Assembly (NCBI GenBank): GCA_021817945.1
Contig: JAKAFL010000006.1
Span: forward strand, 1-64,000
Direction of reading: 5' to 3'
DNA from: a bacterium
GTDB lineage: Bacteria > Verrucomicrobiota > Verrucomicrobiia > Limisphaerales > UBA11358
DNA: 64,000 nucleotides
Both the position numbers and the translations under genes were made by a program. Shown here one piece after another: positions 36,290 to 52,789 of the stretch. The notes beneath the pieces were generated by a model. That model was not told where the DNA came from. It worked only from the letters and a program-made list of their open reading frames with translations, and did not search any database. Each line of letters opens with the position of its first letter. Position 1 is the first letter of the stretch.

Positions 36290-39200
36290 GTCTCCAATGC
36301 CTTTAGCCCTCATCGGTTTTTTTCACATGAAACGAAAGAATGGTATCAGAAAGGAAAACTTCTGTCTCCAATGCCTTTCGGCTTCTTCGGGTTTTTCCAC
36401 GCGTTTAGATGGCAAAGGATTTCTATGCGTTAATGATAAGTCTCCAATGCCTTTCGGCTTCTTCGGGTTTTTCCACATATTTGCGGGGATTTCGCAAATC
36501 CGGCGTCTTCAGAGGTCTCCAATGCCTTTCGGCTTCTTCGGGTTTTTCCGGCGCGCTGTGGTGGGAATCAAAAAAAACTTCCTCCCCGTCTCCAATGCCT
36601 TTCGGCTTCTTCGGGTTTTTCCCCGCGCGGAAAGCGCACTGTACATCCTTGGCAAACGTCTCCAATGCCTTTCGGCTTCTTCGGGTTTTTCCCCGGTGCT
36701 ACCGAACCGGGATTGCTTTCACAGTGGTGGAGTCTCCAATGCCTTTCGGCTTCTTCGGGTTTTTCCCCTTCCCTCGGGTTCAATAAGGTACGGATTAGCG
36801 AGATAAAGTCTCCAATGCCTTTCGGCTTCTTCGGGTTTTTCCCCGTGTTGGTCCGTTGACGAAAGCGGTAAAGTTGTCACTACGTCTCCAATGCCTTTCG
36901 GCTTCTTCGGGTTTTTCCCCAAGTCGCTACGGAGCGTAAAACGTTGCTCGTTGATTCCGGTCTCCAATGCCTTTCGGCTTCTTCGGGTTTTTCCCCAAAG
37001 TCCGCATTAGCGAGATTAATCGCATCGCTCAATGTCTCCAATGCCTTTCGGCTTCTTCGGGTTTTTCCCCAACATTTCCGTGACCCAGCCCGTCGAGGAC
37101 ATTGTCGTCTCCAATGCCTTTCGGCTTCTTCGGGTTTTTCCCCGGTTGTGCATCACGATCGGTACATTCTTTGTCGTTTAGTCTCCAATGCCTTTCGGCT
37201 TCTTCGGGTTTTTCCCCAAAATATTTGCCCAACGGAACCTTCAGAGGTCGTTGTTGCGTCTCCAATGCCTTTCGGCTTCTTCGGGTTTTTCCCCACAAAG
37301 CCTCCCCAAAGGGGAGGCCGTTCAACAAAAAGTCTCCAATGCCTTTCGGCTTCTTCGGGTTTTTCCCCGGTTGCCGCAGCCGCTTACCGCGTTTCTCGTA
37401 CTGCGCCGTCTCCAATGCCTTTCGGCTTCTTCGGGTTTTTCCCCGAAACTGGTGACCGAAGAACTCTCTAACCTAGGTTTTAAGTCTCCAATGCCTTTCG
37501 GCTTCTTCGGGTTTTTCCCCAAAAAGAACTACCTACAGTTCCGGCACTACCGTAGCGTCTCCAATGCCTTTCGGCTTCTTCGGGTTTTTCCCCAGTTCTC
37601 ACGGGTCAAGACAGTGGATGGCGAGGCCGCGTCTCCAATGCCTTTCGGCTTCTTCGGGTTTTTCCCCTCTGCCTTAGGTTTTAACAAGGTCAGAATTTCG
37701 GAAATGTCTCCAATGCCTTTCGGCTTCTTCGGGTTTTTCCCCTGGGCGACGACAAATTTTCATGCGTATACAGGCACACCGTGTCTCCAATGCCTTTCGG
37801 CTTCTTCGGGTTTTTCCCCAACGAAATCGTGTTAAATAAGATTCCTATCTGAATATGGCGTCTCCAATGCCTTTCGGCTTCTTCGGGTTTTTCCCCAGCG
37901 GGCTTTTGGCTCCAACGTCCCATGAAGCGACGTCTCCAATGCCTTTCGGCTTCTTCGGGTTTTTCCCCGGCAAAGGAGGAAGCAAACATTATGCGTGAGC
38001 CAAACCAAGTCTCCAATGCCTTTCGGCTTCTTCGGGTTTTTCCCCATCCTCTCTTACGGATAAGCATTTCATCCCTCCGTAAAGTCTCCAATGCCTTTCG
38101 GCTTCTTCGGGTTTTTCCCCTTCCGCAACGGTGAAACACCTCGAAACCCTCACTCATGTCTCCAATGCCTTTCGGCTTCTTCGGGTTTTTCCCCAAAGAC
38201 GGGGCAATTCAACCAGCAACTGGATCTCCAGCTGTCTCCAATGCCTTTCGGCTTCTTCGGGTTTTTCCCCTGGTAACTGAGGAGCTGACATCCCTAGGCT
38301 TTAACAAAGTGTCTCCAATGCCTTTCGGCTTCATCGGGTTTTTCCACCAAGGCCAGAGAAATAGAAGGCCAAATATGAAAGCCAGTCTCCAATGCCTTTC
38401 GGCTTCATCGGGTTTTTCCACGGCGTGTCCTTCGCCAAACTCTCCATTAAAAAGCTGAAGTCTCCAATGCCTTTCGGCTTCATCGGGTTTTTCCACACCA
38501 GCAAATGGCTCTCCTTCTCTCCCTGATGAAGGGTCTCCAATGCCTTTCGGCTTCATCGGGTTTTTCCACGGCCTGACACTAGCGAGCCGCAAGTTATCAC
38601 CAAGGAGTCTCCAATGCCTTTCGGCTTCATCGGGTTTTTCCACTCTCTATTAAAAAGCTCAAGCCACGGAAACAGAAAAAATCGTCTCCAATGCCTTTCG
38701 GCTTCATCGGGTTTTTCCACGACGGATCTGCGCAAGAGCAGTGCGACAGCCAAGTATATGTCTCCAATGCCTTTCGGCTTCATCGGGTTTTTCCACCCGC
38801 TGGACACCGTGACGACCAAAGACCGTTTCCTGCTGGTCTCCAATGCCTTTCGGCTTCATCGGGTTTTTCCACTGGCTGGGTGTGAATCAACACCGCATAA
38901 GCACTAGGGTGGTCTCCAATGCCTTTCGGCTTCATCGGGTTTTTCCACACCCGTCAAAAACCAAACGGATCAAGCCTGTATTTAATGGTCTCCAATGCCT
39001 TTCGGCTTCATCGGGTTTTTCCACTTGACGCGGGACCTCGTGCCTCCGCAACCCCAGCGCAAGTCTCCAATGCCTTTCGGCTTCATCGGGTTTTTCCACC
39101 GGACCTGTTTGGAATGTAGAGCTTACAAACCAGCAGAGTCTCCAATGCCTTTCGGCTTCATCGGGTTTTTCCACAATTAGGTTGGGGGTCGGACGTATTT

Positions 39201-39932
39201 GTGCTGCTTCCGAGTCTCCAATGCCTTTCGGCTTCATCGGGTTTTTCCACGTAAAGAGCTTGGTTCAAAACTCCATTCGTGAAATACCCAGTCTCCAATG
39301 CCTTTCGGCTTCATCGGGTTTTTCCACTGAGGCACGCAAAAAAGCTGGCCAAGATCGCGGCATCCGTCTCCAATGCCTTTCGGCTTCATCGGGTTTTTCC
39401 ACCAGGTCATCTGTGGTGGAGTCTGAGGAGCTCAAGGTGGAGTCTCCAATGCCTTTCGGCTTCATCGGGGTTTTCCACTCGGCATGGCCCTGGCGGAGCC
39501 ATCCCCAGACGAGGTGTGGTCTCCAATGCCTTTCGGCTTCATCGGGTTTTTCCACCCTGGAACTCCCTTCGTGCCTTGGAAATCATCGAGCCGTTGGTCT
39601 CCAATGCCTTTCGGCTTCATCGGGTTTTTCCACTCACACTACTTCCTAAAACCTATGAGCGAAGGATTGAGTCTCCAATGCCTTTCGGCTTCATCGGGTT
39701 TTTCCACAAAAAAACATATGACAAACTACAAAAGACACCAAGAGGTCTCCAATGCCTTTCGGCTTCATCGGGTTTTTCCACTAATCCGCAATTACGGGGG
39801 TGATGGATTCGGACAGAATGTCTCCAATGCCTTTCGGCTTCATCGGGTTTTTCCACACCACGGGGAGGAAACCAACTACATGGTTGTTCCAATCCGTCTC
39901 CAATGCCTTTCGGCTTCATCGGGTTTTTCCAC
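36290..39932 (-). CRISPR. CRISPR array, 49 repeats and 48 spacers (type III-B locus)
   Basis: The 37-bp repeat begins (plus strand) GTCTCCAATGCCTTTCGGCT and ends TTTTTCCAC. Spacers are 33-41 bp and all differ. The repeat at 36290-36326 is degenerate, which marks the old end, so the leader and youngest spacers are on the right, next to cas2. Transcription is therefore leftward. Read that way the repeat ends TTGGAGAC, like the ATTGAAAC-type 5' handle of type III crRNAs, and contains GCC-GAAA-GGC, a small hairpin. Repeats fall into blocks: 36364 and 36440 (CTTC, ending CCAC), 36515 (ending CCGG), 23 repeats from 36588 to 38270 (CTTC, ending CCCC) and 22 repeats from 38311 to 39932 (CATC, ending CCAC). 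One repeat at 39442 carries a T-to-G change. Confidence 0.99.
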
Positions 39933-40166
39933 CCCGGTCAAATAACCGGCTGATGTGGAAGGAGTTAAATTTATGACAGGATGAGAGGGCATGCAAGGTC
40001 GTTTTGGGAACATTGCCAGACCTTTTAAAAGTCGCTTGTTTAGCGAACATGTCTATGAAAGGCAAGGTTTTATGATTTAGGCAGGGACCCTCCTTGTTTT
40101 GGAGGATTTTAGGCCGAGACCTGAACTGGAGGGTTGTGTCTAAGATTTTGAATTTCTCGGATGGTA
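39933..40166 (-). promoter_or_regulatory. CRISPR leader
   Basis: The interval between cas2 and the youngest repeat. On the minus strand TTGCAT (39991-39996) and TAAATT (39968-39973) are spaced by 17 bp and would start transcription about 25-30 bp before the first repeat. A small inverted repeat, CCGGT/ACCGG (39934-39949), lies directly at the leader-repeat junction, where integration factors act in other systems. A second, CCTCC/GGAGG, is at 40089-40105. Leader identity is firm from array polarity; the promoter is a reasonable candidate. Confidence 0.75.
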
Positions 40167-40442
40167 TCATACGAGGTAACAAAGGCATTTCTCGCTGCAA
40201 ACCATGGTGCCGGCAGTCATGATCTCCTTGGCTGAGCGCGCATCAATCCGGTAAGCCACCAGCCGGTCCTCTTTTTCATTGATTGCATCGAGTAATCGCA
40301 GCCAAAAGTCGTCGAATTCCCCTTCATCCAAGCGGCACTCGAAGATGGAGTATTGCACGCGCACGCCATAATCCTCGCAAGTTTTTGCCACTCGGGCGAG
40401 GCGTTTGGGTTCGCTGATGTCGTAGGCAACGAGGGTTAGCAT
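40167..40442 (-). CDS. cas2: CRISPR adaptation endonuclease Cas2
   Basis: Cas2 forms the scaffold of the Cas1-Cas2 integrase that inserts new spacers. The 91-residue protein begins MLTLVAYDISEPKRLARVAK, with the conserved Asp in YDIS. It continues with CEDYGVRVQYSIFECRLDEGEFDDFW and ends VCSEKCLCYLV. The Met at 40442 is where family homology begins; the frame is open up to an ATG that overlaps the cas1 stop, so a longer form of about 114 residues is possible. It reads towards the leader and array. Confidence 0.95.
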   Translation of the reverse strand: MLTLVAYDISEPKRLARVAKTCEDYGVRVQYSIFECRLDEGEFDDFWLRLLDAINEKEDRLVAYRIDARSAKEIMTAGTMVCSEKCLCYLV

Positions 40443-40510
40443 TTGGTTAGCGCCGGGTGGCGACTTTTGATAGGGGACTTCTGGAAAGGCGTCATACCAC
40501 CAGGTATTCA

Positions 40511-41563
40511 TCAATTGATGAGGAAAGGTTCAAAGGCCTGGTCATCCGCCAGGGCGGCTTTGAACATGACGGCCTGGTTTTCGAGCTGCTGGCGGAGGGT
40601 GGTTCGGTGTCCGGCAGATTCGGAAAGGAATTGTCTTTCCATGCGGCGCTCGTATTGGAGGAAGAATTTTTTGCGTCCATCCTCGTTAAGATAAACGCCG
40701 CCGTTTTTTGGCTCGAAGTGGCTGGTGTTGAGGATTTGATGGCTGAAAAGGTCCAGAGCCAGAGCCTCCACCAGGACGGGACGAAACGGCTCCATCAGGT
40801 CCAGGGCAAGAGACCAGCGTCCATCCTCGGTGGCATGGAGGAGGCCCAGGGCTGGATCAAGTCCGTGGGCGTGGATGAAGGAGACCAACTCGGTGTAGAT
40901 GAGTGTGGAACCGAAAGAGATGCAGGCATTGACTGGATTCAGGGGCGGGCGCGTGCTGCGGCGTTCAAAGGGGAAAGTGTCAGGCAGAAAGGCGGCCCAA
41001 CATTGGAAATAACGCGCGGTGGAGGCTCCCTCGTAACCTCTTAATTCATCAATGGATTGAGCCGTTTTCAACGATGCAAAGAGGCTATCGAGCCAGGAGA
41101 GGGCGGCATCCAGCCCGCTGGCGGAGGAGCCTGGAACTTCAGCGTCGTTCTCCACCATGCCTGCTTTGCGCCCTGAGGCCAGCCTTTGCAGGATGCGGCG
41201 TTGATTGTATATTTTGGCCGTGATCAAGCGGCCTGTCATTTGAAGTGCGAACCTGGAGTCACGGGTCCGCTCATACTGCCGCAAGCGGGCCAGGCCATGA
41301 TGGTTCATGGCGGGGAGAAAACCCCCCAGAAACTGCCCGTTCCAGCCCAGATAATTCACGGGAATATTGCCCCGCAACAGGGCCGCCATGGCGGCTGATG
41401 TGATTTGCACCGACTCGGTCAAAATGAGACGGTCCAAGTCGCGCAGGGGGATTTCGCGGAGGACTTCATCGCGATCCTTTTCCGGGTTTCGGGCGATGAT
41501 TTCAAGCCTTTCACTTTTCAGGTGAATGCGGCAATCAGGCTGGTTGATACAGGCGGTGGGCAT
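40511..41563 (-). CDS. cas1: CRISPR adaptation integrase Cas1
   Basis: Cas1 is the metal-dependent integrase of spacer acquisition. In this 350-residue protein the N-terminal beta domain (CRIHLKSERLEIIA) is followed by the helical catalytic domain. The conserved active-site residues are visible: Glu178 in RGYEGASTARYFQ, His243 in GLDPALGLLHATEDG and Glu258 in LALDLMEPFRP. NACISFGSTLIYTEL is the usual helix before the His. Length is typical. It is a stand-alone Cas1, with no reverse transcriptase fusion, which is sometimes seen in type III systems. Coupled to cas2. Confidence 0.97.
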   Translation of the reverse strand: MPTACINQPDCRIHLKSERLEIIARNPEKDRDEVLREIPLRDLDRLILTESVQITSAAMAALLRGNIPVNYLGWNGQFLGGFLPAMNHHGLARLRQYERTRDSRFALQMTGRLITAKIYNQRRILQRLASGRKAGMVENDAEVPGSSASGLDAALSWLDSLFASLKTAQSIDELRGYEGASTARYFQCWAAFLPDTFPFERRSTRPPLNPVNACISFGSTLIYTELVSFIHAHGLDPALGLLHATEDGRWSLALDLMEPFRPVLVEALALDLFSHQILNTSHFEPKNGGVYLNEDGRKKFFLQYERRMERQFLSESAGHRTTLRQQLENQAVMFKAALADDQAFEPFLIN

Positions 41564-41749: not shown

Positions 41750-43021
41750 CTAAGGTTTGATGAAAATAAGCGGTGCCGGGATATCCAGCGAAAAACGTCC
41801 CCGCATGGGAAGGCACGACTCAAATACGGACGCATCGCCGCCCATGTCCTTGATTTTTTCCCGCAGGCTGGACAGGGAGCGGCGGATATCCTGGTCGCCA
41901 TCAGAATTGAACTTGAGGGTTTTAATCGAATCTGATTTACGCCAATCGGACCAATCATTGGCCGGAGCTTCAGCCATGAGCGCGTCGCGAAATTCATTCA
42001 ATGCCTCCAAAGCTTCGTTTTGCTTGGCAAAAGCCGGTTCGCCGTTCTTGGCGCGTGCGGCCAGAAAGAGCAGCAGGAGATGCTCCCGGGGGGCGAGCTT
42101 GAGACGGCTTCCATTGACATCAATTTCAGCCCGTGAGCGCTCGATGGTCAGGCGGATGGATTCGCTGAGGCGCTCGCGCACGCCGGCGCGGCAGGCCTCG
42201 ACCAGGCGCATGAAGCCGCCGGCCGGCCGGCCCAGTTCGCGTCTGAAAAGTTGGCGCAGGGGCACAAACGGAACGTCAGCCAATTCAAGCCGCGCGGTTT
42301 CGGGCCGGACTGGGGCGCCATCGCGAAGGCTCAGCGTGCCGCCGGGCTGCCCTGGAAAAAAGAATTCGCGGGTTTGGTCAAATGGTTCATTGACCAGGAC
42401 GTGGGTCAAACGGTCGCTGTCACGGCCAATCAGGGAAAAACAGGCATAAAGCAGGGCCCCCATGGTCTTGCGTCCGCCTGCGAGCGAGGCAATGACGGTC
42501 TTGTCAGGGTCCTCGACCAGACCGCGGAGTTGTTCAAGAATGAAAGTGGCAGCCGCTTCGTTATCGTCTGGGGAGCGGATGTCATCGAGTTCGGTGGTGC
42601 GGCCGGAATCACGGTTGGTGGTGGTAAAAACGCGCAGGTCATCCTGGGTGGAACCAAAACGGAGCCGTCCGCGCAGTGAATGACCTTCCGCACCCAGCGC
42701 GGCGCGGAGTGCGTCCCATGGGGATATTCCGCCAAACCGCGCAAGGGGCTTAAACAAACCATTCTCGATTTCCCGACGGCCAACCACCGTGGTCAAAACG
42801 ATGACCCGATGTGGAATGACAGGCTGCTCCCCACTCTCCTGGGAGGGATGAGCCAAAGCCCAAATGGTTTCAGTGAGGATGGCGGGCGACATGCCTGTGA
42901 CGGCGAGCAGGACGATTTCTGATGCCGAGCCAGAGGATTTGGCCAGCGTCAAGCTGGCTTTGGTTGCTTTTCCCGCAGGACAATGTTTGGATTTAGTCTT
43001 CCCAGTTTTCATCATTTCCAT
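41750..43021 (-). CDS. CARF-domain protein, NE0113 family
   Basis: A 423-residue protein whose N-terminal half is a CARF domain of the NE0113 (Cas_NE0113) type: IVLLAVTGMSPAILTETIWA near residue 35, and SLAGGRKTMGALLYACFSLI with RDSDRLTHVLV further on. CARF domains bind cyclic oligoadenylate; members of this family have been annotated as ring nucleases, which would degrade the signal and switch the response off. The C-terminal part (SLSSLREKIKDMGGDASVFE) looks like a winged helix and has no HEPN RxxxxH motif that I can see. The start is uncertain: Met codons at 43045, 43021 and 43012 are in frame. It lies between the Card1-like nuclease and cas1. Confidence 0.88.
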   Translation of the reverse strand: MEMMKTGKTKSKHCPAGKATKASLTLAKSSGSASEIVLLAVTGMSPAILTETIWALAHPSQESGEQPVIPHRVIVLTTVVGRREIENGLFKPLARFGGISPWDALRAALGAEGHSLRGRLRFGSTQDDLRVFTTTNRDSGRTTELDDIRSPDDNEAAATFILEQLRGLVEDPDKTVIASLAGGRKTMGALLYACFSLIGRDSDRLTHVLVNEPFDQTREFFFPGQPGGTLSLRDGAPVRPETARLELADVPFVPLRQLFRRELGRPAGGFMRLVEACRAGVRERLSESIRLTIERSRAEIDVNGSRLKLAPREHLLLLFLAARAKNGEPAFAKQNEALEALNEFRDALMAEAPANDWSDWRKSDSIKTLKFNSDGDQDIRRSLSSLREKIKDMGGDASVFESCLPMRGRFSLDIPAPLIFIKP

Positions 43022-43026
43022 AATTG

Positions 43027-43266
43027 TTATTCGAAGCCGGGCCATTGAAACGGGGCAATTTCCGGCAACGCCTCACTTCCAGCGATGTGCAATTGTGCCA
43101 TTTCGGCGACAAGTTTTTGTTCTCCTTCGGCGAGCGCAGCATTCAATGCCTTCCGTTCTTTATCGAAATCAGCGGTCCTTGCTCGCACAGCCGGTGAGAT
43201 ACGGCTTCGGTCAGCGGAATTTCTGCCCCGCATTTGGGACAGGTGAGTTTCGTGGCGTTTGTCATT
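43027..43266 (-). pseudogene. Frameshifted remnant of a DUF2130-family gene
   Basis: A frame from ATG at 43266 reads MTNATKLTCPKCGAEIPLTE then AVSHRLCEQ and then runs to a stop. The continuation is in another frame: ADFDKERKALNAALAEGEQK, ending at 43027. Joined, these form the zinc-ribbon start and first coiled-coil part of DUF2130 proteins, which are normally several hundred residues. Only about 75 residues remain, with a one-base frameshift near 43190 and the rest deleted. It sits inside the Cas operon between the two CARF genes. Confidence 0.65.
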
Positions 43267-43340: not shown

Positions 43341-44531
43341 TTAGAGAACAGGCTTCATTTCGTTCAGGAAAGCGGCCACCATGACTGGCAATTCAGCGAG
43401 ATCATCACTCCATATCAGCTTTCCTCCGTAGTCAATGGCTTTTGCTTCCTGGCTGGCGATGATGGCGGAGGCGTTGGCAGCAGTGTAGTCGGCGCGATGC
43501 CGATGAAAATAGAGCATCCAACGTCCAAAGAGCCGGCCAATCCGCCTAGTTCGAGCATATTGTTCTTCGATTACATCCGCTAACTCATCGAGGTCAAGAT
43601 GGCTCTTGCATTCCAACACCAAAAAACGGCCTTCGTTGGCCACGGTTACGTCCAACTCTGCCACTCGCCCTTTGACTCCGGGATTCAACACCACATGCCA
43701 AGCCACATCATCCACGGCGCTCCGCTCCTTTATTTGAGACCAGACAAAAACTTCCAGATACGTGTTCTTGAGGAACGCTGCGTTTTGTTCTTGCGCGGTT
43801 TGGAGATGGAAGGGGTGCAGCAATGTTTTGTGGGAAAGAAAGAACTCACCATTGTTGGAACCTAGTTGGATCAAGTCTGCCTCCTGCAATGCTCTGAGAA
43901 ATTCTGGAGCGACGCCGCGAGGCCGATACGGTTTCCTGTCTGCACCTGCCAGGCGCAATATCTCGGTTCGTTCCCACGGACGGGCATCCATGATCAGCGT
44001 AGCAGCATTCACAAGCGACGGTGCGGGGGTGCAGCGCTTACGAAAAGACTCCAGCGTGTCGGCGTTTTCAACGGTGTGCCCGGCGGCTATGATATGAACT
44101 AGGACATTCAGGCCAAGCTTGGCCGTGTCAATCGGATCTGTTCGGATTAAATCATTTGCTGGCACCTCCCGCAACACTTCGCGCGCTGCCGTGTTTACAT
44201 ACAGCGCGGGAATCTGTAAGTCTTCCGCTAAACGACGTGCCGCATAACTCATAACCTTTGTTCCGCCTGTCCAGTTGATTTCGTAGGAGGTATCTGCTTT
44301 GGTTGCCTCTTGTATCGTATTCTTGCAGTCCGCCAAGTCATACGGCAGGACTGTAACCGGTTCGAGCACCTCGGCAGAACAGCCGGCCGCTTTCAACGCG
44401 AGGCCGAATGCGGCAGCTTGCGCTCCAGATTCCCGGCTGACGACTGGCAATACTCGGTCGGGGTGGGTTTGAAGCACGCCAATAACATTGGGCATGAGTT
44501 CGCCGCTTAAGAGACAGATTTGTGTTTTCAT
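43341..44531 (-). CDS. Card1/Can2-like cyclic oligoadenylate-activated nuclease
   Basis: A 396-residue CRISPR accessory effector of the DUF1887 type. The N-terminal CARF domain includes SYEINWTGGTKVMSYAARRL (TGGTK, residues 88-92). The C-terminal part is a PD-(D/E)xK nuclease with AELDVTVANEGRFLVLECKS, giving Asp294, Glu307 and Lys309 as the catalytic set. In Card1 and Can2, binding of cyclic tetra-adenylate to the CARF dimer activates cutting of single-stranded DNA, RNA or nicking of supercoiled DNA. All active-site residues are present, so it should be functional. It is 162 bp downstream of cmr1 in the same direction. Confidence 0.93.
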   Translation of the reverse strand: MKTQICLLSGELMPNVIGVLQTHPDRVLPVVSRESGAQAAAFGLALKAAGCSAEVLEPVTVLPYDLADCKNTIQEATKADTSYEINWTGGTKVMSYAARRLAEDLQIPALYVNTAAREVLREVPANDLIRTDPIDTAKLGLNVLVHIIAAGHTVENADTLESFRKRCTPAPSLVNAATLIMDARPWERTEILRLAGADRKPYRPRGVAPEFLRALQEADLIQLGSNNGEFFLSHKTLLHPFHLQTAQEQNAAFLKNTYLEVFVWSQIKERSAVDDVAWHVVLNPGVKGRVAELDVTVANEGRFLVLECKSHLDLDELADVIEEQYARTRRIGRLFGRWMLYFHRHRADYTAANASAIIASQEAKAIDYGGKLIWSDDLAELPVMVAAFLNEMKPVL

Positions 44532-44693: not shown

Positions 44694-45569
44694 TTACCCG
44701 AGACTGGATTGGAGAAGTAGTCTGCCAATCTCCGTTGGTTTCGATTTCACTGTTCCGTTAGCCAATCGTTCAATGGCTGTGCGCAAATGAACTCGGTTGT
44801 TGCCCGTGATATTCTGACGATCATCCCAGAGCGCCAGAATGCGATAGCCGTCTGCGAACCGGCGGACGGTGAGGCGCAACGGCGAGGTCTTGCGGGCCGG
44901 CGCAGGGTCTTGCGGCCCTTGGTGGACTGCACCGAGAGGGTAGTGCAAATCTGGCAGGGCCTCATGCGAGATTGTCTCGGTGATCACCCTGCGTCCCGTT
45001 TCAGCCTGCGGGAATACACGGTCGAGGATGTCAAACCTCAACGGCGCGTCCTTCAGCAAATCCGCGAGTTGCTTCCGGAATATCTCGACGTCCGTTGGTG
45101 CGTCGCTCCAATGAATGGCTCCGCCGCCACGGGTAGTTCGAAGACCGAGGGAGCCGGCGAGAAGCCAAGATTTCGTTGCGCGGTTGGCCAGTTTAATGTG
45201 AGCGTCCGACAAACCGCCAAGGCGCTCCGCAATGACAAGCGTGAATCGCGTGCCCGCTGGAAAGGCGCACTTCGGCGCATTCGGGGCGTAACGAGGGTCA
45301 TTTCCGGCCGGTTTGTGTGGAAGCGTTGGCGGAAACAGCGCAGGGTTTGGCCGCTGGGGAAGATCGGCCACCCGCACGACCAATTTGCTCGCCGTGGCTC
45401 CTCCGTGGACACCGCCGAAGACCGCCTTCTCGTCTGCGTAACTGCCGCCCAACGCGCGGAACCACCAATGCAGTTGACCGCGAATTGATGCGGGGCGGAT
45501 TTCTGGCAGATCGTCGTAGGCACCGCGGCTGAAGAGCGGCGTAATGAACTCGATTTGGTATCTGTTCAT
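44694..45569 (-). CDS. cmr1: Type III-B RAMP protein Cmr1
   Basis: Cmr1 caps the 3' end of the Cmr complex and helps recognise target RNA. In this 291-residue RAMP protein the N terminus has the signature YQIEFITPLFSRGAYDDLPE followed by IRPASIRGQLHWWFRALGG. The glycine-rich segment SWLLAGSLGLRTTRGGGAIH is a typical RAMP loop. It is somewhat short for the family. Its start overlaps the end of cmr6 by 4 bp. Cmr1 is placed after cmr6 here, at the end of the interference block. Confidence 0.92.
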   Translation of the reverse strand: MNRYQIEFITPLFSRGAYDDLPEIRPASIRGQLHWWFRALGGSYADEKAVFGGVHGGATASKLVVRVADLPQRPNPALFPPTLPHKPAGNDPRYAPNAPKCAFPAGTRFTLVIAERLGGLSDAHIKLANRATKSWLLAGSLGLRTTRGGGAIHWSDAPTDVEIFRKQLADLLKDAPLRFDILDRVFPQAETGRRVITETISHEALPDLHYPLGAVHQGPQDPAPARKTSPLRLTVRRFADGYRILALWDDRQNITGNNRVHLRTAIERLANGTVKSKPTEIGRLLLQSSLG

Positions 45570-46927
45570 GGTAGGGACACTCCGTGGGTTTTGGCGGCAG
45601 CCAGCAGCGCCTCAACCCTGGCTTTGTTTGCTGGCTTGTCGCTTTTCTTCCATCGCTTCCAAGTCTCTTTCCTTTCCGGTGAAAGGAGGGCCAGAAGAAG
45701 GCCCTTTTGCTCATCGTCAGAAAGGGACGCCATTTCTGAAACAGCTTTTGCAAAGGCTTCCTCGTTGAGTTTGGAGAACCGCTCGCGCGCAACCTGGGAT
45801 GGAGACAGAACGGCGATGCGTGCGGCTTCGGCGGCTTCTTTGGCTTTGGCTTCGTCCGCCTTTCTGGCCAGTTGCTCCGTTAGTTCCTTGGCTCGTCGCT
45901 CTTCCTCAACAATCTCATCAAGCACTTGCGGCTGCAGGCTGAACCAGCCGTAGCCGGACGCCGTCTTGGCTCCCAAACCTCGCACGGTGAGCGCGGATTC
46001 AAGCCATCGTCGAGCTGCTTCCAAGGTCTCGGTCTGGGCAAAAGCCCGATTAAACATCAGGCAGAAGGCAAATTGCCCGCCAACTTCCACGGCAGGAAAT
46101 GGATTGGGAAAGGGGCGCTCCTTAGAGAGGTCTTCCGGCAAACCGGTGCGATAATAGTCAGGATAGTGAACGTTGGTTAAGTCCACGACCACCTTTGCTT
46201 CGTTGACCGGATAGGCGGGAAGAAAGCAAACGAGGCCGCGCTTATTCTCCGGCCGGGAGCCCAAAAGATCACGGAATGGCTGCAGGTCTCCGTTGGCAAA
46301 ATCGTTGTCCACCGTGCCAAACACTGCGAGGAAGCGTTCAAACAGGTGCCGCCGGTTTTCACCTATGGATGCCTTAAGTTCCTCCAACGCGGCGTGACGG
46401 CAGACACCTTTGACAGCCGAGCCGGGGATAAATGGCATTCCAAACAGACGATCCAGGCTGATACCGGCGTTCTGGATCAGAGAGTCCGCCAAGTTGATGG
46501 CGAGACGGCCTTCGAGTTGGCCGATGGCGATGGCAGCTCGGCTGCCAAATGCGGAGCGGAACAAACTAATGAAGCGCCGGGTGTGCTTTGCACAGAGCCC
46601 GCTCAGTTCAGACCTTTCCACTCGGGTTGACGATAGAGAATCTGCGATTTCTGCTTCTGTCTTCAGGCGCTGTGCCTTCTCGGGATTCTTTTCCGCCAGA
46701 CGTTTCGCTTGGGATTTCCTGTCTTGGCCTTCGCGCGCAATCAGCGCCGCACCACCCTCACTAATGCGTAGGAGCGTCCAACGATGGGCATCATTTGCCC
46801 TGAGGCCGTCAAGCCCCCATTGCTTATGAAAGGCGAACTTCTCCAAGAGCAAACTGCGATTCTCGACCCGCTCCGCAAATGGGCCGATCACGCTGACCAA
46901 ATCGCCGGCGATGGGAATGCGTGCCAT
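45566..46927 (-). CDS. cmr6: Type III-B RAMP protein Cmr6 with C-terminal extension
   Basis: Cmr6 is a RAMP subunit near the 3' end of the crRNA. The RAMP core shows GMPFIPGSAVKGVCRHAALEEL (residues about 170-192) and the terminal glycine-rich loop TVRGLGAKTASGYGWFSL. The 453-residue product is longer than usual because about 110 residues follow: a charged coiled-coil stretch (VEEERRAKELTEQLARKADE) and a helical end with KETWKRWKKSDKPANKARVE. The start at 46927 follows the cmr5 stop by 2 bp and begins MARIPIAGDLVSVIGP; the frame is open 14 codons further upstream into cmr5. Confidence 0.9.
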   Translation of the reverse strand: MARIPIAGDLVSVIGPFAERVENRSLLLEKFAFHKQWGLDGLRANDAHRWTLLRISEGGAALIAREGQDRKSQAKRLAEKNPEKAQRLKTEAEIADSLSSTRVERSELSGLCAKHTRRFISLFRSAFGSRAAIAIGQLEGRLAINLADSLIQNAGISLDRLFGMPFIPGSAVKGVCRHAALEELKASIGENRRHLFERFLAVFGTVDNDFANGDLQPFRDLLGSRPENKRGLVCFLPAYPVNEAKVVVDLTNVHYPDYYRTGLPEDLSKERPFPNPFPAVEVGGQFAFCLMFNRAFAQTETLEAARRWLESALTVRGLGAKTASGYGWFSLQPQVLDEIVEEERRAKELTEQLARKADEAKAKEAAEAARIAVLSPSQVARERFSKLNEEAFAKAVSEMASLSDDEQKGLLLALLSPERKETWKRWKKSDKPANKARVEALLAAAKTHGVSLP

Positions 46928-46929
46928 GA

Positions 46930-47292
46930 TCAACCTTTCTTGGCGAAGCGCTTGGCAAAAGCCAGCCACGCCATCGCTTCTGCCGTGGCGAGTTTAAGGG
47001 TTTCACTTGTCGTGTCTTTTCGGGTGAGAAATTCCATCAACTTCGTTCGGTCGGTGCATCCTGCGTCCACAATGCCAACATCTTTGTCGGCGAGGTGTTG
47101 AGCGATTGCGTCGAATACCCGTCCCACGGCCTGCTGGTTGTCTGCGAACCCAAAAGCCATCACGGCAAGGAGTCCATGGTTGAGAACCTGGTGAGGCAGG
47201 TTCTTGATGACATCGCCTTGGTTCTGACCTGCCAGTGGCCTGGCAGAGAATGTGAACGCGTTGCGAGCCCTGATTTGTTGGAGGTTTTGCAT
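46930..47292 (-). CDS. cmr5: Type III-B small subunit Cmr5
   Basis: Cmr5 is the small alpha-helical subunit that forms the inner filament of the complex beside Cas10. The 120-residue protein begins MQNLQQIRARNAFTFSARPL and ends ATAEAMAWLAFAKRFAKKG, the typical Cmr5 closing helix (AxAxAWLxFxKRFA). VIKNLPHQVLNHGLLAVMAF is the usual central helix. It lies 15 bp after cmr4. Confidence 0.93.
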   Translation of the reverse strand: MQNLQQIRARNAFTFSARPLAGQNQGDVIKNLPHQVLNHGLLAVMAFGFADNQQAVGRVFDAIAQHLADKDVGIVDAGCTDRTKLMEFLTRKDTTSETLKLATAEAMAWLAFAKRFAKKG

Positions 47293-47307: not shown

Positions 47308-48129
47308 TCAAGCGAGTTTAACCGTGCAGAAGCCAAGGCCGGCGGTGCCTTTACCTCCAAACTGGATGAGTTGCTCCGACGCCAGCGCGTCGAAAACCGC
47401 GTTTGAATCTCCGTTGACCTTGCGTGTCTCGGTCAACCCGCTGTAGAAGAGTGTTTCGCTGGGGACTGTTTCTTCATTGAACAGGCCACCCCCCTCCGCT
47501 GTACCGGTGTCGTCATCAATCCGAACATGCTGGTTGACCTGGCAGGCGTTCACCGCAAAGTGGGACAGGTCGCCGTCGGAGAGCAGGACGAAACGCCCCT
47601 CCGCGCCGGTTAGAACCGCATCGCCGAGCAAGGACTTAAATTTTTCCTCCCAATCCTTGGGAAATTCTCCGGCCACGCTGAACCGGTATTCTTCAAGGAC
47701 GACCGCACTCTTCCCAGGAACCACGATCTTGGAACAGGCGAGGCAGGTCATGTCCTTGGGGACAGCAGGCACTGAAAGTTTGAAGCCGGCATCTCGGGCA
47801 AAGCGTTGCAATGCGAGCGGCGAGGTTGCCAGGGCGAATGAACCTTTGGCGGAACGCACTGGGAAGAGCAGCAACCTAGCTTCTCCGAAAGAAATTTTTC
47901 CAGCGACAAAGTTCTCGCCATCGCCACCTTTGCCAAAGAGATCATCGAGTTTGTCGGGACCGATTGAACTCAGGTGGTCCCGCAGCACTCCTTTGAGGCT
48001 CGTACCGGGAATTACCGGAAAGCCCGTATGTCGTTCGCGGATGACGGGCTGGTCAATGGCGCCCACGCTGGCGCCAGCGCCGACGTGGAGCGGGGTTCTG
48101 GTGAAGATATAGAGCAGTTTTTGTTTCAT
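47308..48129 (-). CDS. cmr4: Type III-B backbone RNase subunit Cmr4
   Basis: Cmr4 forms the backbone filament and cuts target RNA every six nucleotides. The 273-residue RAMP protein starts MKQKLLYIFTRTPLHVGAGA. It keeps Asp26 (SVGAIDQPVIRERHTGFPVI), the residue known to be needed for target cleavage, and the loop PVIPGTSLKGVLRDHL. The closing RAMP loop is IQFGGKGTAGLGFCTVKL. Target slicing should therefore be intact. Confidence 0.95.
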   Translation of the reverse strand: MKQKLLYIFTRTPLHVGAGASVGAIDQPVIRERHTGFPVIPGTSLKGVLRDHLSSIGPDKLDDLFGKGGDGENFVAGKISFGEARLLLFPVRSAKGSFALATSPLALQRFARDAGFKLSVPAVPKDMTCLACSKIVVPGKSAVVLEEYRFSVAGEFPKDWEEKFKSLLGDAVLTGAEGRFVLLSDGDLSHFAVNACQVNQHVRIDDDTGTAEGGGLFNEETVPSETLFYSGLTETRKVNGDSNAVFDALASEQLIQFGGKGTAGLGFCTVKLA

Positions 48130-48167: not shown

Positions 48168-49571
48168 TTAGGACGTCGCCGGACGTACCTCAAAGGGTTT
48201 CCATGTTCCGCAGACGCCCAAACCATAGCCTTTTTCTCCCAGTAGCGTGCTGCGGCGGTTTTTGATTTCCGAACCGGCGGTTGTGCCATGCCAATTAAGG
48301 GCATTGGCAAGGGCAACGGCTTGATCGGCGGAATCAGCCTCGAAATAATAAACCGCCCCGGCGGCCACGGCCAGATGGGTGGATTTGGCGCCGCCTTGGG
48401 GGGATTGCTGCGGGTCGGACAGGTTGGCGGGGTTGGGCAGCGCCCAGCCGGTGACCACCAACGGTTTGGGCACAACGGCCGCCACCAGACGTGCGGCGAT
48501 GACTTGACCGGGCGAACCTCCCTTGCGTTTGGCTTTTTTGACGCCGACACCTGCCGTCAAGAGGACTTCGCCTTTTTCAGGATAAATCCAATTGGGCAGC
48601 CATCCGCCGGGATGGGCATTTTGGGGCGAGCCATCTTTTTTTGTGGCTGAAATTTTTGGCCAGACGGCGGGTGAGAGCAAAACCCATTTCACGGCAAATT
48701 TGCCATTGGGGAGGGCGATGAAATCGGCTGTGTTGGAGAGGCCCTGCGGCAGGGGAAGGGGATTTGTTTCCTTCAATTCCGCCGTGCAAATCCGCTGCTG
48801 TCCACCCACCACAATGTGAGCTGGATGGCCGTTGATGAGTGCCTTGACAAGATCGTTTCCATGCGTGGGGTGGTTAAAATCCTTGTCCTCCGCCTTGGCC
48901 AGCAGGCCCAGTCGAAACCCCTCGCGCAGGCGAAGGTAAAGGGCGGAATAAATCTTGCCCTCAGCGGCTCCTTGACCGGCAGTTTGCGTGTCGGAGTCAA
49001 TGGTGATTCCAATGCTGGCTTCCTTATCGCCAATCATTCCATCGGTCAAAAAATGGTTGGGGGAATTGGAATCGTCCTTCAACGCCGTTTCACTAAGATA
49101 GGCCAGGAAAGCCTCCGCTGAAAACCAGGATGGCAAATCCGCCTCCTTTTCAGGCGGGCAGGAGTTGGCCACTGCATATTGGAGAGGCGAAGGGAGACTG
49201 CTGGCTGACCAGAGGTCCTGCTGGCCCAGCGATGAGGATAAAACTGGAAAAAAGGTCGGGTTGACGGAGCCCTTTGCCTGGGCATCTTTGGGTCTGGGAA
49301 AAAACCACCGCCCCGTGGCGTCCACGGGAAAGGGTCCTGCAGTGAGGAGGGAGCCGAAAATGCGGCTGCGCTCATTGGAATATTTTCCGCTTTTTCCACG
49401 GCGATGGAGGTGAACGCCACTGAAGCCCGCACGGTGCAGGGCGGCGTGGAGGGCGTGGTTGGTGACATCGGGGAGGGGCCAGGCTGCGGAATGGCCGGCC
49501 AGGGAACCGGTCATGGGTCGGCCATCGCGAAAAAACAGGACATCCACTGGATTGAGGAGCAATGCGTTCAT
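48168..49571 (-). CDS. cmr3: Type III-B RAMP protein Cmr3
   Basis: Cmr3 binds the 5' handle of the crRNA and pairs with Cas10. The 467-residue protein starts MNALLLNPVDVLFFRDGRPM, matching the DxxFFRDxRP signature of Cmr3, and continues WPLPDVTNHALHAALHRAGF. The long middle part and WALPNPANLSDPQQSPQGGA region resemble the second RAMP fold. The C terminus (STLLGEKGYGLGVCGTW) has the glycine-rich loop. It follows cas10 by 8 bp. Confidence 0.94.
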   Translation of the reverse strand: MNALLLNPVDVLFFRDGRPMTGSLAGHSAAWPLPDVTNHALHAALHRAGFSGVHLHRRGKSGKYSNERSRIFGSLLTAGPFPVDATGRWFFPRPKDAQAKGSVNPTFFPVLSSSLGQQDLWSASSLPSPLQYAVANSCPPEKEADLPSWFSAEAFLAYLSETALKDDSNSPNHFLTDGMIGDKEASIGITIDSDTQTAGQGAAEGKIYSALYLRLREGFRLGLLAKAEDKDFNHPTHGNDLVKALINGHPAHIVVGGQQRICTAELKETNPLPLPQGLSNTADFIALPNGKFAVKWVLLSPAVWPKISATKKDGSPQNAHPGGWLPNWIYPEKGEVLLTAGVGVKKAKRKGGSPGQVIAARLVAAVVPKPLVVTGWALPNPANLSDPQQSPQGGAKSTHLAVAAGAVYYFEADSADQAVALANALNWHGTTAGSEIKNRRSTLLGEKGYGLGVCGTWKPFEVRPATS

Positions 49572-49579
49572 GGATTGGA

Positions 49580-52372
49580 TTAACTTTGGGAAACGTTAGT
49601 GGAATCAACCTTGTTGCGGCTTGCAAATGCGACTGATTGCATGAGGCCGATAAGGCCAATGAGCCGGTTCTGGGTTGTATGGAGGTTTTTTAGATATTTC
49701 TCCGCATTTTGAGAGATTGTTTCGCCCTCGGAAGCGGTCCAAGATTTTCCCCGCTGCCTGTTCAGCGCCACCCTCAATTCTTGCAGGATGATTTCAATGG
49801 CATTTTGATCAAAATCGGCATGCGGTTTCATCCGCGCGGTGCCAGCCTGCCGTGCGATATATGGCTCTAACAAATCCACGACTCGATGGGGGAATTTTGC
49901 GGAGAGAACATCCTCCTTTAAAGCCGACAAGATTGCGTCGTGAAGGTCCAGACCACCGGAATCCCACCGGCAACCCCATTCCAGAATTTCCCCACTGCGT
50001 TTAAAAAGTGTCACCGCAACGGCACTGCGGCCTAGGCCGCCTTTTTCGTCGGGCCGCTTGGCGCGTTTCTCCGCCGATTGCGCCTTCCGCACCACGTCCT
50101 GCAGTGGAGATTTGAAATGCGCCATGGCGATGCCCACGGAACAGTCCGCAGCGGGTCCTGGAACAAGGAAAGGGATGGGACGGCCTTTCCCGTTATCATC
50201 CTTCCACGATTCTGTTGAAAGGAAGCCTGGAGCTGGGGATTCAAAGAGAATTTCCCCTTTAGGCCCCAGCGCTTTTTGTCCGGTGAAAGCGCATCGCAAG
50301 GATCTGGCGCAGGCGAGCGCATAATCCGCAGGAAGCAGGGCGAGGACATCATCGCCGCCGGCGTAAATGAGGCGGCCATCGAAAGACTCGACGATTATGC
50401 GGGAGCAGCGGAGTGCAAAATTGCTCAGGGCCTCGCTGAATTGCAGGTGGTATGCAGGGGATAGCGCGCGTTTGGCAGAATTGAACCCAATGAATTCCTG
50501 CCTTTCAAAATAAGCCCTTGCCCCATGGCGCTCGACGCCCGAGCCATCGCAATAATCAGCCAACTGGCCGGCGAATTTCGGGTTTTTTTCCCCGCTAATC
50601 CACTTGCCGATTTCATCCCCGTCGAGTGCGAGGACGGCAAAATATTTTTCGGCATCGTTCTGGTCTTCCACATCATCCGCCATTTGATCGTCGTGGAATT
50701 TAGCATCTTTTGCATCTTCTCCTTCAGGATCATGGGCAGCAATGCCGCGAGTGTTGGACATTTTCTGCAATTCAAGGCTCCACTCAGGTTTCAAATAGGC
50801 GAGGTCCCAGAGGCGCTTGACCAGGGTGACCGCCCCCAGCCAGTCGTCTTTTTTGAATCTTGATTTCCATTGTTCCCCGAGATTTTGACAGCGTTCCATC
50901 CATATTTTGCCGCCCGCCACTGCCTCGTCCCGCCCATTCAGGGAGTCCTTGTTGTTGCCCGCGCCAGCACTCCATCCACCTTCAGCCCAGGCATTGAAAT
51001 CTCTTGTCTGGCGGACGGCATCCAACTGCCATGAGTTGAAAGCGAGAATGACGGACCAACCGAGGCCGATGTTATTGAGCTGATTTTTGGGGCCATCTTT
51101 GCCGCCAACATAGTAACGCCCATCGCGATGTTCATTCCGCATGTGTTCTTCTGCCATCCGCTTCACAGCCAAGACGCGATCACGCGCCAAAGCGACAGGC
51201 ATTTGGGGATCAAAACCCTTAACCAAAGCAATGGCCTGATCCAGGGATTCCGGCCAGGGAGTGGCTTGCCATGAGATATTCAGAAAGGAAGCCACCTGGG
51301 CATTGAACCGTTGCTCGCGAACCGTTCGCTGGATGGCGCCTTCATCGGCTGTGAGGTTCTGTTGCGTGCCTGGGAGAACTTGGGAATCGCAAAAACTCCA
51401 GACTTTTTCGGCAATGCGGCCCCATTCCTGTCGGACGGCTTTTTCCACAATTTCAGCCAGTCGAGCAGCCTGGCTGGCGGGCACGACCGCGAGGAAAACG
51501 TTTGGCAGGTTTGGCGTTTGCAATCCTTTTTTGAATTGCGGATCCTCATTCAGTGAATCCCATGCGGATTTGCCACCAATGGTTGCCTTTTTCCAAAGGT
51601 CATCCCGCCAGTGAAGGTCAAAAAGCGGCTGGCCGCAGAGATTGGGGAAGATGACGGCATCGGGTCCAATTTCCACCGAGAGGGCTTTCAAGCCGGCCGC
51701 CATCAGCCAGGACAGGAGGTAGCTGCCGCTCCACAAGTCCCGAATGCTTCTGGCGGTGGCTATGAAATCCTGCACGGGTCCAAGTTGGAACTTCAGGAAT
51801 GCCGGATGAAACTTGCCATCGCAGACACAACCGGCGATTGCTGAGGTGACCTGCATGTGAGTCCAGATGGAATGGTCAGGGATGCGGGTATCCGCAGGAA
51901 GGAAGGAAAGCCTGTAATCTTTTTCGGATGCACGCTTGGACCAAAGACGCCAATGGGCAAAAAACCGGGCGCGCCAGCGCTCAGTGTCATCTTTAAGGGC
52001 AGCAAGAGAGGCTTCATCCTGGACTGGTTGAACGGTTTCCTCGCCCTCCATGGCTTGTTCCACGGATTTAAATTCGGCATGGAATTCGAGTTTCTCACCG
52101 CATAGCGGATGGAGAAAGGCATTGCGAATGCCATCGAACGCACAATGCAGACCGGAGGCTTGCGAACTCGGAAAAGGCAGGCGATCCGCAGCCGCAGCTA
52201 GGTGATCGGCATTTTTAAAATAAGCGCCGATTTCCGCGTCCACGAATCCAGCCTGGCGGAATGCAGCATCGGAGCGCTCGCCGTGAGTGCGGATGTCCAG
52301 GCATTTGCTCGGCGGATCATGAAGAAATGCTGCGAGCTTGGTTTTCCAGAAATTCGTGGATGGCAAATTCAT
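49580..52372 (-). CDS. cmr2: Cas10/Cmr2, signal-synthesising large subunit
   Basis: Cas10 (Cmr2) is the large subunit that, on binding target RNA, makes cyclic oligoadenylates. The 930-residue protein starts MNLPSTNFWKTKLAAFLHDP. The N-terminal HD-type motif is FLHDPPSKCLDIRTHGERS, so the HD site may be present. The two palm domains include VLALDGDEIGKWISGEK (about residue 580) and YAGGDDVLALLPADYALA with an intact GGDD at about 671-674. The zinc-finger and D4 helical parts follow. The start at 52372 is where family homology begins; upstream codons (MECRLSGASGNV) do not resemble Cas10. It is first in the Cmr operon. Confidence 0.96.
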   Translation of the reverse strand: MNLPSTNFWKTKLAAFLHDPPSKCLDIRTHGERSDAAFRQAGFVDAEIGAYFKNADHLAAAADRLPFPSSQASGLHCAFDGIRNAFLHPLCGEKLEFHAEFKSVEQAMEGEETVQPVQDEASLAALKDDTERWRARFFAHWRLWSKRASEKDYRLSFLPADTRIPDHSIWTHMQVTSAIAGCVCDGKFHPAFLKFQLGPVQDFIATARSIRDLWSGSYLLSWLMAAGLKALSVEIGPDAVIFPNLCGQPLFDLHWRDDLWKKATIGGKSAWDSLNEDPQFKKGLQTPNLPNVFLAVVPASQAARLAEIVEKAVRQEWGRIAEKVWSFCDSQVLPGTQQNLTADEGAIQRTVREQRFNAQVASFLNISWQATPWPESLDQAIALVKGFDPQMPVALARDRVLAVKRMAEEHMRNEHRDGRYYVGGKDGPKNQLNNIGLGWSVILAFNSWQLDAVRQTRDFNAWAEGGWSAGAGNNKDSLNGRDEAVAGGKIWMERCQNLGEQWKSRFKKDDWLGAVTLVKRLWDLAYLKPEWSLELQKMSNTRGIAAHDPEGEDAKDAKFHDDQMADDVEDQNDAEKYFAVLALDGDEIGKWISGEKNPKFAGQLADYCDGSGVERHGARAYFERQEFIGFNSAKRALSPAYHLQFSEALSNFALRCSRIIVESFDGRLIYAGGDDVLALLPADYALACARSLRCAFTGQKALGPKGEILFESPAPGFLSTESWKDDNGKGRPIPFLVPGPAADCSVGIAMAHFKSPLQDVVRKAQSAEKRAKRPDEKGGLGRSAVAVTLFKRSGEILEWGCRWDSGGLDLHDAILSALKEDVLSAKFPHRVVDLLEPYIARQAGTARMKPHADFDQNAIEIILQELRVALNRQRGKSWTASEGETISQNAEKYLKNLHTTQNRLIGLIGLMQSVAFASRNKVDSTNVSQS

Positions 52373-52789
52373 AAATGTGTTTTCAGCTTTTTCCGCATCT
52401 TTTTCACATCCGAACCCTAACCCTTTCGCCAATAGGCCGCCATCACGCAGACGTCTGCGGACGTTCCCTGAAGCCCCGGACAGGCGACACTCCAAATTTT
52501 GAATGCGGGAGTTTTACTGGCTGCAGGACCGGTTTCCAAGTTAAAAAATGATCATTTCCCGGAAATTTTAATCCAGGGGGTATGACATTTACGGTCCCTT
52601 CCCCAATTATTTTTTTGACGAAAAAACATCCGCTGTTTTAGCTGGCGAGCGGGCTTCCAAGCCTTCTTCAAACGGCCAGGCGGCAACCTTTGGACCGTGC
52701 CGGCCCTGCCTGCAACCCTTGGGAATATTTTTGAAAGCGTTCGACTTGGGGGCGGGGTTTTGAGAGGCTTGGTTTCATCATTTATTGAC
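52373..52789. other. Divergent promoter region between cas10 and isomerase gene
   Basis: This 417-bp interval must contain the promoter of the Cas operon (minus) and that of the isomerase gene (plus). A TTGACG at 52615-52620 with TTAGCT 17 bp on is a weak plus-strand candidate. A palindrome GCAGACGTCTGC and an overlapping 14-bp inverted repeat (52451-52464) lie 80-95 bp before cas10. The same 14-bp sequence recurs at 41727-41740. No gene is seen. Confidence 0.45.

Follow-up and report, generated by a model that had tools for sequence, protein, structure and literature searches.

Five of the 48 spacers of a CRISPR array in a member of the Limisphaerales (Verrucomicrobiota) encode, on the plus strand, overlapping pieces of a single peptide. 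The array belongs to a type III-B (Cmr) system and lies in a 64,000-nucleotide stretch of contig JAKAFL010000006.1 (assembly GCA_021817945.1), here called the window. Table 1 gives the coordinates. New in this work are same-orientation, peptide-sharing spacer pairs in this array and 23 related loci taken together.

Results

Five spacers encode one conserved peptide

The initial annotation had listed the five spacers that form this tile, and both their coordinates and their plus-strand translations held up. The supported peptide is KLVTEEL(S/T)(N/S/A)LGFNKVRISEINRIAQ. Residues that need repeat bases were excluded as evidence. The C that ended the annotated NRIAQC is therefore dropped, as it consists of one spacer base plus GT from the repeat; likewise, the M at the end of spacer 37668 (AT plus a repeat G) is no evidence for a tile residue. 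The final K of spacers 36769 and 37445 is AA plus a repeat G and is compatible with the N found elsewhere.

We scored all spacer pairs by ungapped BLOSUM62 comparison of plus frames against six frames. The two top peptide scores, 50 and 41, both fell within the tile. Base shuffling of the array, repeated 150 times, gave best scores of 30 on average and 40 at most. Linking spacers at scores of at least 29 yields a largest component of five, but shuffles also reach five (mean 1.6), and the size of this component adds nothing on its own.

Codons were compared in eight of the ten tile pairs; the remaining two, with fewer than three codons in common, were left out. The 56 comparisons yielded 14 differences at codon position 1, 5 at position 2, and 34 at position 3. 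Among the 41 codons that differed, 34 changes were synonymous and seven non-synonymous, counted over eight overlapping comparisons that share spacers and hence are non-independent. The decisive codons came from spacers 36769 and 37668, in which Ser is AGC or TCG and Arg is CGG or AGA. Because these codons differ at positions other than the third and yet encode the same residue, plus is the coding strand of the tile. The counts bear out the earlier proposal that the differences are biased to third positions, with the spacers derived from diverged homologues under selection for the protein, and the codon pattern shows that a real conserved protein lies behind the tile.

Two further overlaps, of two spacers each, likewise agree in orientation and read in frame on the plus strand. 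Spacers 38422 and 38644 have SIKKL in common, and spacers 38195 and 38497 have PA[T/N]GSP in common. Their DNA pair scores, 15 and 14 respectively, compare with best pairs of 11-13 in six shuffles, and their peptide scores are no higher than those of shuffles; both overlaps are weaker than the five-spacer tile. One other spacer, 38873, was considered as a sixth and more distant member of the tile; its score was matched in seven of 60 shuffles.

Table 1. Features of the CRISPR array and the adjoining cas operon, in window coordinates
Feature	Position	Strand	Peptide or remark
CRISPR array	36290..39932	-	49 repeats of 37 nt, 48 spacers of 33-41 nt; leftward transcription probable
Tile spacer	36769..36807	+	SLGFNKVRISEI (+ AA)
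Tile spacer	36997..37033	+	KVRISEINRIAQ (+ T)
Tile spacer	37445..37483	+	KLVTEELSNLGF (+ AA)
Tile spacer	37668..37705	+	SALGFNKVRISE (+ AT)
Tile spacer	38271..38310	+	VTEELTSLGFNK (+ GT)
Third overlap, member 1	38195..38233	+	KDGAIQPATGSPA
Second overlap, member 1	38422..38459	+	GVSFAKLSIKKL
Third overlap, member 2	38497..38532	+	PANGSPSLPDE
Second overlap, member 2	38644..38683	+	SIKKLKPRKQKK; shared codons differ synonymously
Candidate sixth tile member	38873..38911	+	WLGVNQHRISTRV; more distant, not significant
Probable leader side, 200-base flank	39933..40132		such flanks common to related arrays, weakly with this array
cas2	40167..40514	-	TIGR01573
cas1	40511..41563	-	350 residues; no reverse transcriptase model matched
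CARF protein	41750..43045	-	NE0113 family (ring-nuclease/Csx1-like)
Card1-like CARF nuclease	43341..44531	-	PF23400 and PF09002
cmr1	44694..45569	-	
cmr6	45566..46969	-	
cmr5	46930..47292	-	
cmr4	47308..48129	-	
cmr3	48168..49571	-	
cas10/cmr2	49580..52495	-	

The array adjoins a Cmr operon and is probably transcribed leftward

Cas10/Cmr2 is encoded together with Cmr1, 3, 4, 5, and 6, and the array and cas1-cas2 adjoin this operon, as in type III-B. Rightward of the array the order is cas2, cas1, the two CARF genes, cmr1, 6, 5, 4, 3, and cas10, all on the minus strand. This gene content is the same as in type III-B Cmr systems with a Card1-type effector. The Cas6 family PF10040, the one Cas6 model used, had no match in the host genome (94.7% complete); we noticed nothing unusual in the gene content otherwise.

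We compared the flanks of related arrays after orienting each by its repeat. Flanks on the right, the cas2 side here, were common to arrays: 19 of them had a mean local score of 15.4, and this array reached 27 at best. Those on the left were not, with a mean of 11.0 over 13 flanks and a top score of 14 for this array. Five differences make the leftmost repeat degenerate. Since right flanks are shared, the left repeat is degenerate, and cas2 and cas1 lie on the right, the leader would be at the right, on the cas2 side, and the array transcribed leftward, as the initial annotation had proposed. Read leftward, the repeat folds into a GCC-GAAA-GGC hairpin (z of -3.16, versus -1.25 for the other strand). 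With leftward transcription and a tile that codes on the plus strand, the tile crRNAs would be antisense to the mRNA; this part of the annotation is likewise supported, through the codon-based coding strand and the probable orientation of the array.

Peptide-sharing spacers recur in large related arrays

Close Cas1 matches (E<=1e-60) were present in 35 of 320 genomes of the order, the host included in both counts. We took 40 stretches around related loci, with the regions of two genomes (G021 and G059) in duplicate. From these we obtained 23 further loci with 549 spacers, after removing from 561 the seven of an unrelated system (L167) and five duplicates (L162). At one locus (L200) the repeat consensus is short (25 nt), so that its four spacers carry some repeat bases; it contributes no pair.

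Across the 24 loci, 57 within-array pairs had a peptide score of at least 40, and 52 of these were in the same orientation and five in opposite orientations. Two shuffles of the whole spacer set gave 0 and 1 pairs at that score. This array supplies two of the 57. A number of pairs consist of adjacent spacers whose DNA is nearly identical, and these may stem from one event. Among pairs with at least three DNA differences, 31 were in the same orientation and one was opposite; 26 of the 31 scored better on the plus strand and five on the minus strand, and 19 of 23 diverged clusters scored higher on plus. A strong orientation bias toward transcripts, of the type described for Thermus, is thus present among the overlapping spacers of the 24 loci taken together.

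Pairs were seen at every one of the six loci that have 35 spacers or more, one of which (L230) has a single pair of near-identical neighbours, and at one of the 18 smaller loci (L199, one pair). The 17 of 23 other loci that lack a pair have at most 20 spacers each. The array at L217:11-12651, in a related genome, is richer than that of the window, with 164 spacers and 30 same-orientation within-array peptide pairs; five of its spacers fall on one peptide around AQTMCPECW. Between arrays, 11 pairs scored at least 36 and none reached 40; two shuffles gave eight and seven pairs of at least 36 in all. The five-spacer tile itself was absent among the 549 related spacers.

The tile peptide is absent from the collections searched

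In its own genome the tile peptide had five matches, all inside the array. We found no match by tblastn against phages and plasmids, none for back-translated tile patterns in IMG/VR viral contigs or in GTDB genome contigs, and none in Pfam, PHROGs, or PDB. Among 5.8 billion proteins the tile matched P0001 only, by its length and contig an open frame of this array, and 15 further protein candidates gave nothing at E<=10. Between them, the three protein searches, run with X-padded queries (lengths 124, 382, and 801), covered proteins of about 68 to 1,400 residues in the case of the main tile.

Several candidates were inspected and set aside. The pattern LVTEELxxLGF occurred at three loci in viral contigs, two of them short, unconvincing open frames and one a Leviviricetes replicase. 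A relaxed pattern matched three different and apparently unrelated proteins in genome contigs. Among 294 related genomes, three weak tile matches outside the array were rejected on inspection.

The DNA of the array gave either no match to phages and plasmids or weak ones (three in one search; E of about 1 or worse) that we take as chance, and further searches of the same kind gave none at E<=0.1. For the first 7,900 bases of L217 there were twenty weak matches, the best at E of 0.7. Tiles from related arrays had no match in phages and plasmids, nor did the one pattern searched in viral contigs. Against the relatives, one search with related-array tiles matched 50 of 292 genomes at E<=0.5 (best outside G068, 0.01) and another matched two of 292; these matches are the genomes' own arrays and weak ones.

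The initial annotation had proposed that the spacers come from the same coding site in one family of mobile elements. Repeated sampling of one coding site stands; the attribution to a mobile-element family gained no support, as the peptide is in no collection searched. The annotation had also counted occurrence of the peptide in no protein family as evidence against its reading. So far the peptide has been found in none, which we do not take as a refutation because the codon pattern shows a real conserved protein.

Reverse transcriptases in the host and its relatives

The host genome (94.7% complete) had no RVT_1 (PF00078) match at E<=0.001. Cas1 was matched there by one protein, of 350 residues and without a reverse transcriptase (RT), and with this single RT model we found no RT fused to or adjoining Cas1 at the host locus, as occurs in RT-Cas1 type III systems. 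Among six related genomes with pairs, G068, G061, G144, and G118 lack an RVT_1 match; seven pairs come from G144, whose genome is one contig and 97% complete. The other two, G163 and G223, have RVT_1 matches, as do 14 of the 20 genomes tested. At L230:3305-6056 (G223), a 660-residue open frame with YADD and an RVT_1 match overlaps the start of cas1 in another frame; this locus is an RT-linked relative of the host's RT-less system.

Discussion

On balance we think it likely that the Cmr system sampled the members of a single family of invaders, probably DNA phages, and that selection kept the guides that bind transcripts. Ordinary Cas1-Cas2 would have taken spacers on separate occasions from several diverged members of that family (up to five), and acquisition itself may be strand-indifferent. 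Guides that pair with invader mRNA, and that act where blocking the transcript saves the cell, would be kept; the protective target could be a limited region that is early or essential, or a genome that is small. The record left would be a same-strand, synonymously diverged tile of one conserved peptide. Each crRNA would guide Cmr to the mRNA, and Cas10 would then signal to the Card1-like effector. The array would thereby trace how one invader protein evolved under purifying selection, and this suggests that guides against a single coding site are retained by a type III-B system even as the site diverges synonymously.

The size of the target can be gauged from the tile. When 48 uniform spacers were simulated, all assumed to come from one family, a pile of five within 40 nt arose with a probability of 0.40 when the target was 2 kb long, falling to 0.13 at 3 kb, 0.03 at 5 kb, and 0.001 at 10 kb. 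The spacers look like a sample from a few kilobases, an effective target that would suit a very small genome as well as a narrow protective region of the kind seen in Thermus. Where the initial annotation had the array repeatedly loaded against the same site, repeated sampling is upheld, but targeting at acquisition is not required, given how readily a 2-3 kb target yields the pile.

Several observations count against sampling of one DNA-phage family followed by selection. Overlaps tie in just nine of the 48 spacers of the array. When near-identical pairs are included, the 38 same-orientation clusters, found at seven of 24 loci, split into 22 on the plus strand, nine on the minus strand, and seven undecided. 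Two genomes whose arrays have pairs, G163 and G223, carry RVT_1 matches. Finally, a conserved DNA-phage protein would be expected among 5.8 billion proteins or in IMG/VR, and the tile's absence there weighs on the same side.

A broader conjecture, which we offer tentatively and regard as doubtful, is that the large type III-B arrays of the order are memories of unsampled invaders, either RNA phages or hyperdiverse small-genome phages, whose proteins are conserved and whose codons are saturated. Comparing the spacers of an array with one another at the protein level would then be enough to rebuild pieces of these proteins without any viral sequence.

That the sources are specifically RNA phages outside the known ones seems unlikely, and acquisition would need an RT in trans or one since lost. 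Several features fit such sources. RNA phages have high mutation rates, expected to lead to saturated synonymous divergence, and genomes of a few kilobases, the effective target length seen here; they are not in DNA collections, and the peptide is missing from the DNA-based collections searched. At one related locus, L230, an RT open frame with YADD lies directly before cas1. The tile weakly resembles, in one case, the region after YGDD of a Leviviricetes replicase, but the resemblance ends after LGF, and the host, G068, G061, G144, and G118 have no RVT_1 match. We compared the spacers with an RNA-phage set of 12 deposited genomes and 84 IMG/VR loci, of which 94 of 96 loci were used; 80 of the 94 were the best of at least 600 as ranked by one replicase alignment, so that other lineages are thinly covered. 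For this array, scores of at least 42 were reached by two of 98 plus frames, none of 90 minus frames, and two of 821 shuffled frames. For all 597 spacers (48 own and 549 related), by contrast, mean best scores were 30.68 on plus, 30.81 on minus, and 30.71 when shuffled, and scores of at least 40 came from 21 of 1235 plus, 21 of 1186 minus, and 19 of 2200 shuffled frames, a slight excess over shuffles that is equal on both strands. These comparisons appear to weaken the idea, with the proviso that 12-residue peptides have little power. Several replicase-like matches in 14 loci had seemed to favour RNA phages and were weakened by the larger tests. A tile match in L122 that began at the start of an open frame could not be placed by 57 aligned maturation proteins and was treated as noise.

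It is quite unlikely that a single invader genome supplied all five pieces, from diverged copies of a repeated domain or of a multigene family. Such copies would also be on the same strand and synonymously diverged at one site, but the arrangement would have to recur independently for many peptides, given the number of clusters and loci involved. A preference of the adaptation machinery itself for the site, an acquisition hot spot with no later selection, we judge very unlikely. It would account for a pile of five that is improbable when a target of at least 10 kb is sampled uniformly. However, the five spacers start at five offsets within about 40 nt and their synonymous sites are strongly diverged, so that they share little by way of a DNA motif, and a strand bias is what selection is expected to leave, the cause to which it is attributed in the parts of the Thermus report drawn on here (PMC7515739). 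Chance similarity or an artefact of repeat bases is next to impossible: some end residues do derive from repeat bases, but the tile is carried by spacer-only codons, and only one of 150 shuffled arrays had any pair of at least 40, with none above 40.

Both the Cmr system and the selection principle are already known. As set out in the portions of PMC7515739 cited, unselected spacers in the type III system of Thermus thermophilus come from both strands, and selection produces a strong strand bias together with a narrow early-region bias; a 6.6 kb terminal repeat coincides with the early region that is favoured, and selection is given as the cause of the bias. The host's system is like that of Thermus in combining RT-less type III adaptation with a bias to transcript-complementary spacers, and in its narrow favoured region, a bias put down there to the selection of protective spacers (PMC7515739). 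Unlike the known laboratory phages of that work, the invader here is visible through peptide conservation alone. In a large survey, type III spacers favoured the mRNA-binding orientation, on average 65% by target mapping (PMC8482600, in the part relied on here), and this orientation is favoured here too. Against that 65%, 52 of 57 within-array pairs agree in orientation, which would need a bias of about 95% if spacers were independent.

The RT-linked type III-B arrays of Arthrospira offer another parallel: the sections of PMC5513706 relied on here describe spacer sources absent from DNA and RNA viromes, and the sources of the type III-B spacers in the window were likewise not found. Unlike in Arthrospira, as described in those sections, no RT was matched here, and some spacers overlap at the protein level. 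We found no report of protein-level spacer overlap within type III arrays in the open-access literature, which is weak evidence of absence. Comparison of an array's spacers with one another yields an orientation bias and conserved target peptides without any known target, and it could help in seeking new phages in metagenomes or metatranscriptomes.

Repeat variants along the array

The array's repeat was absent from the other 194 of 195 genomes with up to three mismatches allowed. Within the array, the repeat type switches at 38311: repeats to the right are mostly TTCATCGGG...CCAC and those to the left TTCTTCGGG...CCCC, with CCAC endings reappearing near the far left. All five tile spacers lie to the left of the switch, and the third overlap (38195/38497) straddles it. 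Elsewhere in the array, one spacer (37295-37331) contains the perfect inverted repeat GCCTCCCCAAAGGGGAGGC.
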